Shown here: positions 16,554 through 62,642 of the stretch, one piece after another
How positions within the stretch are numbered: the first letter of the stretch is position 1
Layout: each line of letters starts with the position of its first letter
Assembly (NCBI GenBank): GCA_019670725.1
Contig: AP024629.1
Coordinates: 2,666,001-2,730,000, forward strand
Source of the DNA: Alphaproteobacteria bacterium SO-S41
Lineage (GTDB): Bacteria; Pseudomonadota; Alphaproteobacteria; Micropepsales; Micropepsaceae
Reading direction: 5' to 3'
Length of the DNA stretch: 64,000 nt
Translations under genes and position numbers: made by a program
The notes under the pieces: generated by a model
What the model saw: only the letters and a program-made list of their open reading frames with translations
The model's database searches: none
What the model was told of the DNA's origin: nothing

Positions 16554-16665
16554 GTCATCCCGGCCGCAGCGCAGCGGAGAGCCGGGACCCAGGTGACTGG
16601 ACACGGTATTTGCGGCCCCTAGGTCCCGGGTCTCGGGCGCCTACGGCAGCCTCGCCCGGGATGAC
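16554..16665. repeat. Dispersed palindromic repeat, family A (copy 2, inverted)
   Basis: This 112 bp element begins GTCATCCCGGCCGCAGCGC and ends CTCGCCCGGGATGAC, the reverse complement of copies 1 and 3. It lies between convergent genes, 16 bases from the end of the yhdP-like gene. Confidence 0.9.
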
Positions 16666-37232: not shown

Positions 37233-37241
37233 ATTCTTCTC

Positions 37242-37353
37242 GTCATCCCGGGCGAGACCGCCGAAGGCGCCCGAGACCCGGGACGCAGGGCCGCAAGCAC
37301 CGGCGTCCAGTCACCTGGGTCCAGGCTCTCCGCTCCGCTGCGGCCGGGATGAC
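37242..37353. repeat. Dispersed palindromic repeat, family A (copy 3)
   Basis: This 112 bp copy is in the same orientation as copy 1: GTCATCCCGGGCGAGACCG at the start and CTGCGGCCGGGATGAC at the end, with the internal ACCTGGGTCC arm. Confidence 0.9.
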
Positions 37354-59649: not shown

Positions 59650-60435
59650 TCAGATCAGGCCCGCCAGCGGGCTCGACGGATCGGCGTAGAGTTTCTTAGG
59701 CATGCGCCCCGCGAGATAGGCTTCGCGGCCCGCGATGACCGCGTGCTTCATCGCGCTCGCCATCAGAACGGGGTTCTTCGCCTCGGCGATCGCGGTGTTC
59801 ATCAACACGCCGTCGCAGCCGAGTTCCATCGCCACCGCCGCGTCGCTCGCCGTGCCGACGCCGGCATCGACGAGGACCGGCACCTTGGACTGTTCGATGA
59901 TCATGCGGATGGCGATCGGGTTCTGCACGCCGAGGCCCGAACCGATCGGCGCCGCCAGCGGCATGATCGCGACCGCGCCGGCATTCTCGCAGCGCTTGGC
60001 CATCAGCGGGTCGTCGCTGCAATAGACCATGACCTCGAACCCGTCCTTGGTGAGGATTTCGGTCGCGTGCAGGGTCTCGATCATCTCGGGGTACAGCGTC
60101 TTGCGGTCGCCCAGCACTTCCAGCTTCACGAGGCTCCAGCCGCCGGCTTCGCGCGCCAGGCGCAGGGTGCGCATAGCCTCCTCGCCGGTGTAGCAACCGG
60201 CGGTGTTGGGCAGGTACGTCACCTTCTTCGGATCGATGAAGTCGACCAGCATCGGCTCGTCGGGATTGGAGAGATTCACGCGGCGCACGGCGACGGTCAC
60301 GATCTCCGCCCCGCTCGCTTCCAGCGCCCGGGCGTTCTCCTCATAGGTCTTGTACTTGCCCGTGCCGACAATAAGGCGCGAACGGAAGGTCCGCCCGGCG
60401 ACGGTCCACGAGTCGGCTGAAGGATCGATGCTCAT
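59650..60435 (-). CDS. thiG: Thiazole synthase
   Basis: This encodes 261 aa from the ATG at 60435 (another 9 bases upstream). ThiG forms the thiazole ring of thiamin from DXP, dehydroglycine and ThiS-thiocarboxylate in the cytoplasm. The Schiff-base Lys is K104 in [10 protein letters not shown], with [28 protein letters not shown] and [21 protein letters not shown] (in pieces). Its usual neighbour thiS lies about 2 kb upstream on the same strand, with a large plus-strand gene in between. Confidence 0.95.
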
Positions 60436-60607
60436 GGCCCACATCTAGGGGCTGGCGCGGCCCCGCACAACGCTCGACGGCGGTGGCCGATGAACGCCCG
60501 TTCATCGCGATCACGTCTCCGCCCCGCGACGGAATGTCCAAGTGGGGAGAACGGGAATTCCCGCTAGGGTTGTTGTGGGCTGGGACTCGCCTGAGGGGAC
60601 TTTCGAC

Positions 60608-62182
60608 ATGGTATTTTCAACCGCGGCCAAGCGCCGCCTGCTGATCTCTGCCTCCATGGCCGCGCTCATCGCCTGGCCCGCCGGGGCCGCGGCGCCCTCG
60701 GCCTTGCCGGCCGGCTACGCCGCCCTCTTCGCCGCGGCGCCCGCCAAGGCGACGAAGAATGCGACCGGCGCCGAACTGCTGAAGAAGGCGCAGCGCGGCC
60801 TGTCCGTCGCCCTGACCGCCGCCAAGAAGCTGGCGGCGCCCGCGCGCGCCAAGGCCGGACCGTTCTTCAAGGCCGTCAGCAAGGCCGACAAGGCGCTGAA
60901 GGATCTTGCCGCCGCCGTCGGCGCCAAGGACAGCAAGGCGCTCGGCCGCGCGCTCAGCGCGGCGTCCACGGCGGTCGGCACGCTCAACTCGACCTACAAG
61001 CGCGCCGGGATCAAGGACAAGGCGACCAAGGAAGGCATGCGCGCCTTCAACGCCTCGTGGACCGAAACCGTGAAGCGGCTGAAGGGTACGAAATCGAACC
61101 CTGAAACCCGCCAGGCCAACAATCGCCGCATCGGCGGCGTGAAGCGCAAGGTCGAGGACCTGCGCGGCCAGCGTTCGGGCAATGGCGCGGAGGATGCGGC
61201 GCTCGCCTATCTCCTCGGCCTGCTCGACGACGCGATGGCATATAACCGCTCCGACGACGAGGCCTGGTACGCCAACTATCTCTTCGACCAGGCGATGGGC
61301 TGGTATGACGGCTATTACGACTATCTCGGCGCCTACGACCCCGCGACCGCCGGCTTCTATCTCGACGGCTACGGCTATTGGCGCTCGATCTACGACGACT
61401 ACCTGCCGACCTACGACGCCTACTACAACGGCTACGACTACACGCCGTACGATGCGTCGGTGCCGGTCAGCGACTACGTCGATATCGGCACGAACTTCGT
61501 CGATCCCGCGCTGCTCGCCGAGGCCGATACCCAGACCGACAATATCGGCGCGCTCGCCAACGAGATCGCGCTGACCGACACCGACTACGCGAACATGGAA
61601 GCCGCCGACGCCGCGGCCGCCGCCCTGCCCCCGGTCGATGTCGCCGCGGTCGCCGCGACGCCCGATCCCGAAATCGACACCGGCACCAACCAGCCGTTCG
61701 ACGAGGCCGAAGCGCAGCGGATCGCGCAGGAGCAGGAGATGGCCGGCGAGGCCGAGGCCGATGCGCAGACCCTCGACAGCGACGGCGACGGCACGCCCGA
61801 TGTCGCCGACACCGACGACGACAATGACGGCACGCCCGACGAGGCCGATACCGATCACGACGGCGACGGCATCGTCGACAGCGAAGAGACGCCGGACGAT
61901 CCGGTTGCCGAGGATACGGACGGCGACGGCCAGCCGGACGCCGTCGACAATGACGACGACAATGACGGCATTCCCGACGCCGACGATCCCGACGACAACA
62001 ATGACGGGTCGGTGGACGAGCCCGACGAGGGGTCGAACGAGGTCGACACCGACGGCGACGGCACGCCGGACGAGGCTGACGCCGACGACGACAATGACGG
62101 CCAGGCCGACGAGGTCGACACCGACGACACCAATGACGGCGAACCCGACGGCGGCGGCGATGACGGTGGCGGGGAAGAGTAG
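60608..62182 (+). CDS. Large secreted Tyr-rich protein with TSP3-like calcium repeats
   Basis: This encodes 524 aa from an ATG with GAGGGG upstream. A signal peptide (RLLISASMAALIAWPAGAAA) is followed by an Ala/Lys-rich helical part (30-205), a Tyr/Asp/Gly-rich stretch at 212-282 (WYDGYYDYLGAY, YYNGYDYTPYD), an acidic linker and nine D-x-D-x-D/N-G-x-x-D units at about 390-518 (DSDGDGTPD, DTDDDNDGTPD, DTDHDGDGIVD and others), the thrombospondin-type-3/EF-hand-like calcium repeat. It ends GGGDDGGGEE with no anchor. I recognise no family for the first half. It lies inside the thiS-thiG pair. Confidence 0.8.
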   Translation: MVFSTAAKRRLLISASMAALIAWPAGAAAPSALPAGYAALFAAAPAKATKNATGAELLKKAQRGLSVALTAAKKLAAPARAKAGPFFKAVSKADKALKDLAAAVGAKDSKALGRALSAASTAVGTLNSTYKRAGIKDKATKEGMRAFNASWTETVKRLKGTKSNPETRQANNRRIGGVKRKVEDLRGQRSGNGAEDAALAYLLGLLDDAMAYNRSDDEAWYANYLFDQAMGWYDGYYDYLGAYDPATAGFYLDGYGYWRSIYDDYLPTYDAYYNGYDYTPYDASVPVSDYVDIGTNFVDPALLAEADTQTDNIGALANEIALTDTDYANMEAADAAAAALPPVDVAAVAATPDPEIDTGTNQPFDEAEAQRIAQEQEMAGEAEADAQTLDSDGDGTPDVADTDDDNDGTPDEADTDHDGDGIVDSEETPDDPVAEDTDGDGQPDAVDNDDDNDGIPDADDPDDNNDGSVDEPDEGSNEVDTDGDGTPDEADADDDNDGQADEVDTDDTNDGEPDGGGDDGGGEE

Positions 62183-62197
62183 TCTCCCTAACTCACC

Positions 62198-62324
62198 GTC
62201 ATCCCGGCTCTCCCCCTCGGGTTTAACCCGAGGGGGAGAGCCGGGACCCAGGTGACTGGGCATAGTGCTTGTGGCCCCTGGGTCCCGGGTCTCGGACGCC
62301 TGCGGCGGCCTCGCCCGGGATGAC
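62198..62324. repeat. Dispersed palindromic repeat, family A (copy 4, inverted)
   Basis: This 127 bp copy has GTCATCCCGGCTCT at one end and CTCGCCCGGGATGAC at the other. One end differs from the other copies: a TCCCCCTCGGGTTTAACCCGAGGGGGA palindrome (in pieces CCCTCGGGTT/AACCCGAGGG) replaces the CGCAGCGAAGCG-like part. It separates the Tyr-rich gene from thiS. Confidence 0.88.
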
Positions 62325-62346
62325 GATGGAATGCGCAGCAGAGGCC

Positions 62347-62553
62347 CTACCCGCCCCCGATGAACCGCACGATCTCGAAGCGGTCGCCGTCGACCACGGC
62401 GACGGCTTCGTAGGTCGAGCGGGGGACGATCTCGAGATTGCGCTCGACGGCGACCTTGCCGCGGGTCAGACCGAGCAGGACCAGCAGGTCCGCCACGGTC
62501 AGCGGCCCCTCGACCCCGCGCGGTTCGCCGTTGATGGTTACCTCGATCGTCAC
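62347..62553 (-). CDS. thiS: Thiamin biosynthesis sulfur carrier ThiS
   Basis: This encodes 68 aa from a GTG. It is a ubiquitin-like sulfur carrier whose C-terminal Gly-Gly is thiocarboxylated; here the protein ends RFIGGG. Motifs [37 protein letters not shown] and DRFEIVRF are typical. The frame extends 20 codons upstream, but family length favours the GTG. thiG would normally follow directly; here it is displaced by about 1.9 kb. Confidence 0.9.
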
Positions 62554-62642
62554 ATCGTCACCCTGACCCACGCTTTGCGCCCGGGTGGGGGACAGGTATA
62601 ACCCCCTCCCCAACAGATGCGCCGATCCGGCGCCCGGAGCCC

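Follow-up and report, generated by a model that had tools for sequence, protein, structure and literature searches.

What is a gene for a 524-residue protein doing between thiS and thiG, and what might its product do? The question comes from a window of 64,000 nucleotides of the genome of Alphaproteobacteria bacterium SO-S41, in which an initial annotation, made from the letters alone, had placed this open reading frame between the two thiamine genes and on the strand opposite to them. The coordinates and the length of the frame, its forward orientation and the identity of both neighbors hold (Table 1). We favor, with a probability of roughly 45%, the reading that the gene encodes an accessory protein exported to the cell envelope or surface, probably controlled by a two-component system in distant relatives, and that the anionic spacer tail of this protein has turned calcium-type in the window.

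Table 1. Features of the thiS-thiG junction, with their positions in the window.
Feature	Positions	Strand	Evidence
thiG	59650..60444	-	PF05690, E 1.8e-109
Shine-Dalgarno-like GAGGGGAC	60593..60600	+	The G001 and G004 copies are preceded by a similar sequence in the same position
Gene for the 524-residue protein	60608..62182	+	Open frame; homologs in the same genome, the genus and distant Alphaproteobacteria
Probable Sec signal peptide, residues 1 to ~30	60608..60697	+	Sequence read by eye
Predicted folded, mostly helical domain, residues 48-288	60749..61471	+	AlphaFold; homology to distant members
Tyr-rich part, residues 213-304	61244..61519	+	Composition (92 residues, 21% Tyr); lies mostly inside the predicted domain
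Acidic tail, residues 305-524	61520..62179	+	Composition (net charge -82)
Nine calcium-type D-x-D-x-D/N-G units	61775..62152	+	Shuffle test; match to cartilage oligomeric matrix protein
Dispersed palindromic repeat (family A)	62193..62332		About 40 genomic places, a lower bound (40 of 117 candidates scored); fold z-score -7; no match in Rfam
thiS	62347..62613	-	PF02597, E 6.6e-12

A recent guest of the thiamine genes

The initial annotation had suggested comparing the spacing of thiS and thiG in relatives, where a gene commonly present at this junction would be an old resident. We compared 27 relatives that have both genes on one contig, and none of them carries the gene of the 524-residue protein between the two. 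The gap does not exceed 62 bp in 26 of these genomes, and the split seen in the window is therefore recent. The one exception is a congener (G001) with a gap of 721 bp, which holds genes for a DUF433 and a DUF5615/PIN-like protein; this antitoxin-toxin-like pair split the junction independently (L072:2379-2996). Since the junction was entered twice in one genus, and by unrelated genes, the host operon is uninformative on the function of its guest, and the thiamine genes are probably hosts of the insertion rather than functional partners of the protein.

A foreign composition of the inserted gene was considered and rejected, as its GC content (0.684) and GC3 (0.887) resemble those of thiG. Scans revealed no sigma-70-type promoter, and terminator-like sites were not above chance. 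Read by eye, the N-terminus of the protein has KRR, followed by a hydrophobic run and then by small residues, and the N-termini of the congener copies are similar.

A patchy alphaproteobacterial family

No Pfam or NCBIfam model matches the 524-residue protein above its curated cut-off. The statement of the initial annotation that the first half resembles nothing recognizable thus stands for named domains, including the known domain that it had left room for in that half, but homologs do exist. The weak library matches, Exo70_N and XLF_CC among them, fell below the cut-offs and were discarded as coiled-coil noise. The genome itself (G000) carries one paralog, and three of the four congeners have one homolog each. 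No further members emerged when 96 genomes of the family and 385 of the class were scanned with profiles, which suggested a gene confined to one genus. This was overturned by a distant member in another family (G648, E 5.9e-23), found among 398 scanned genomes of the phylum, and by a tblastn search with the G648 protein, which retrieved 23 plasmid records of Agrobacterium (including pAtC58), Rhizobium and Phyllobacterium. Given these occurrences, the family is alphaproteobacterial and patchy, and not bound to the genus. We found no relative of the protein in viral contigs and phages.

The helical part alone suffices to relate the genus group to the distant group, in both directions of reciprocal profile searches and with no shuffled sequence listed. 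The window protein matches the profile of the distant group with E 3e-19. The Tyr-rich part, which follows the helical part, gives weak scores across the groups when used alone, and has Tyr columns that are invariant in the alignment of ten members. All ten share one architecture, in which a helical part of basic pI (9.7-11.6) precedes an acidic part with 14-23% Tyr, and the tail is acidic as well. The helical part of the window protein has 160 residues and a pI of 10.4. The window protein, an orphan at first sight, belongs to an undescribed alphaproteobacterial family with a consistent architecture and a changeable tail.

Two comparisons exemplify this. The protein ATU_RS26285 (WP_010974726.1), encoded in pAtC58 of Agrobacterium fabrum C58, and its relatives in Rhizobium and Phyllobacterium plasmids have homologous helical and Tyr-rich parts, share an acidic tail with the window protein and, as read by eye, seem to have a secretion-type N-terminus like it. 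However, they are only about 20-24% identical to it, lack calcium-type repeats and, unlike the window gene, lie opposite to an operon encoding a PepSY protein, a regulator and a kinase. The paralog (G000:C1:27463, at L008:9464-11191), found downstream of RegA, matches the architecture of the window protein, with 42% identity over the first 313 residues and a tail net charge of -82 in both. It differs in its genomic place and in its tail, made of Pro/Glu repeats with a single DGDG unit at the end. In the tree, as drawn, the end branch of the window copy is by far the longest (1.29 changes per column, where the other branches have about 0.2-0.75), and this copy is therefore an old or a fast-evolving paralog.

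Several sites in one genus

The gene occupies four sites within the genus. The paralog and the G003 copy lie downstream of RegA and face MmcB, a site that is empty in G004, where RegA and MmcB are 21 bp apart. The G001 copy lies between a porin gene and the DUF3576-leuS pair, and this site is empty in G000, G002, G003 and G004. The G004 copy adjoins the gene of formate-tetrahydrofolate ligase, with flanks that are rearranged in the other genomes, so that no empty counterpart is seen there. The window copy, between thiS and thiG, takes the fourth site. In its behavior, the gene is an accessory unit complete in itself. We propose that it is an accessory transcription unit found at varied intergenic sites; the comparison of genomes shows that, in this species, one copy was inserted between thiS and thiG. 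The copies revealed neither a mobility gene nor a target duplication, and the gene may have passed from relative to relative just as well as moved inside a genome.

In close species, this one gene is seen at differing intergenic sites, each time with no mobility gene beside it (L008:9464-11191, L010:8500-10203, L011:2462-4258, L009:9239-10831). A close homolog of RegA was not found in G001 and G002, which incomplete assemblies may explain, and is 86-94% identical in two other congeners.

A predicted fold and an acidic tail

When G648 was added to the alignment, AlphaFold gave a mean pLDDT of 76.5 and a pTM of 0.75, with residues 48-288, including the Tyr-rich part, mostly confident and helical; the mean pLDDT was 54 with the five close sequences alone. 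Two of the five models were good and in agreement and three were poor, so the prediction must be held loosely. The stretch that the initial annotation described as Tyr-rich is so, but the models suggest that it is helical and part of one folded domain, not a separate repeat region. The better model had no significant match among solved structures. A likeness to copper-storage proteins and pectin-methylesterase inhibitors came from the first, poor model (E near 2) and was absent from the top matches of the better one. Two viral entries, K9MCR6 and Q684G3, gave weak fold matches (E 1e-3 to 6e-3, TM 0.40-0.48, 10% identity), which were set aside.

The last 137 residues contain 8 strict matches to D-x-D-x-[DN]-G, of which one pair overlaps, whereas in 20,000 residue shuffles of the same segment such matches averaged 1.1 and numbered 7 at most. 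The nine units that had been read from the sequence are thus real, if counted as the strict matches, with the overlap merged, and two further units in which the third position is N or T. The tail matches cartilage oligomeric matrix protein (3fby) with E 1.7e-4, and its score for PF02412 (TSP_3) is 14.2 bits, below the Pfam cut-off of 25. It has tandem D-x-D-x-D/N-G units, as do the thrombospondin type 3 repeats (PF02412) of that matrix protein, but the window protein has no other thrombospondin domain. It also differs from the OmpA/OprF-type proteins with a TSP3-like linker, since the peptidoglycan-binding OmpA C-terminal domain is absent (the full protein matches no Pfam family).

Among the members examined, the calcium-type repeats occur only in the window copy. 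The tails of the four genus relatives are rich in Pro/Glu, and three of these have a lone DGDG unit at the end; tails elsewhere in the family are Pro/Glu or mixed acidic. Yet the net charge of the window tail (-82) is within the range of the four close relatives (-77 to -111), despite wholly different sequences. Lys and Arg each account for less than 0.5% of the genus tails; the tails of distant members are less acidic (-24 to -31). The conserved feature of the tail is its charge, rather than the calcium motif. We found no donor of the tail elsewhere in the genome. With a tail that has changed in chemistry and kept a nearly constant charge, the family offers a natural experiment on the role of acidic tails in exported proteins.

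Linkage to a two-component system in distant relatives

In each of the six plasmid or distant loci that we examined (pAtC58, Agrobacterium sp. CGMCC 11546, Phyllobacterium, R. tropici CIAT 899, Rhizobium CCGE532 and G648), the gene is divergent from an operon of three genes, for a PepSY protein, an OmpR-type regulator and a HAMP histidine kinase. In pAtC58, the PepSY gene of this operon is ATU_RS26290, and the kinase and regulator genes are ATU_RS26300 and ATU_RS26295. A small ORF separates the two in Phyllobacterium, and about 1 kb in two Rhizobium plasmids. The conserved operon is at L119:4093-6572, L121:2510-4868 and L118:4860-7495. Neither the window nor the surroundings of any copy in its genus showed this operon; for the genus group, the linkage is context and not a defining feature. 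The presumed older site in the genus adjoins another two-component pair, RegB/RegA. The two-component linkage in distant relatives is the best outside clue to function.

Possible functions

In the reading that we favor, the signal peptide would deliver the protein by the Sec pathway. The folded helical domain, with its basic start and Tyr-rich end, would be the conserved working part, with an envelope polymer or a partner protein as its probable ligand. The long and flexible polyanionic tail may act as a spacer or as a brush that attracts cations. Calcium-type D-x-D-x-D-G repeats replace the Pro/Glu repeats in the window tail, which should therefore become compact or stiff upon binding of Ca2+. 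The divergent PepSY/regulator/kinase operon of the distant relatives probably has the gene as its target or its partner. A bolder version has a roaming envelope gene that keeps its folded domain and swaps its anionic tail between Pro/Glu and calcium-type forms at constant charge, the window copy being the calcium-responsive version of a surface protein that is two-component-controlled elsewhere; we regard this version as doubtful.

The linkage may also be read as that of a periplasmic signaling partner, which would bind the sensor kinase or the PepSY protein and tune the two-component system, as FeuN does for FeuQ. In the FeuN-FeuP-FeuQ system of Sinorhizobium meliloti, the periplasmic protein FeuN binds and restrains the kinase (PMC12486126). 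This module of a small periplasmic protein, a response regulator and a sensor kinase would be analogous to the operon beside the distant homologs (PMC12486126), where the divergent arrangement in 6/6 loci fits such a role. However, no FeuN-type operon is known to adjoin the window gene, the gene lies far from such an operon in the window's genus, and a long acidic tail is unexpected in a small modulator; we consider a signaling partner unlikely. Slightly less likely still is the surface, matrix or biomineral protein that the initial annotation had in mind, in which crosslinking or adhesion would fall to the Tyr-rich part, and the organization of a matrix or a mineral to the calcium repeats. 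Its ingredients are all there, from the putative secretion-type N-terminus to the Tyr-rich part and the nine calcium-type units, and the tail is similar to the type 3 repeats found in cartilage oligomeric matrix protein. This reading is nevertheless weakened because the Tyr-rich part, itself conserved, is predicted to be helical and folded, and because the calcium repeats are private to the window copy, whose close relatives have Pro/Glu tails; nor do the neighborhoods hold any pointer to matrix or mineral formation. Finally, the longest end branch of the family would suit a decaying or neutral duplicate, a paralog that is losing its function and whose repeats are slippage products. But the frame is intact and preceded by a ribosome-binding site, the invariant residues are shared, the charge pattern is preserved and the calcium-type units are far above chance, so that we consider decay very improbable.

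These readings bear on more than one genome, as a family that has kept its architecture and lacks a domain model now has a member in A. fabrum C58, a genetic model organism. This member lies beside a candidate regulator, and its function is therefore testable.

A palindromic repeat next to the gene

On the 3' side of the gene, a family A repeat had been noted at the outset, and we confirm there a dispersed palindromic element. It was considered as the carrier of the gene and rejected, as no copy lies in the stretches examined around the paralog or the congener copies. The repeat was not found in the sister-genome stretches examined. It folds far better than its shuffles and forms strong hairpins. 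Further copies are found in the window at 501-598, 16576-16665 and 37240-37331.
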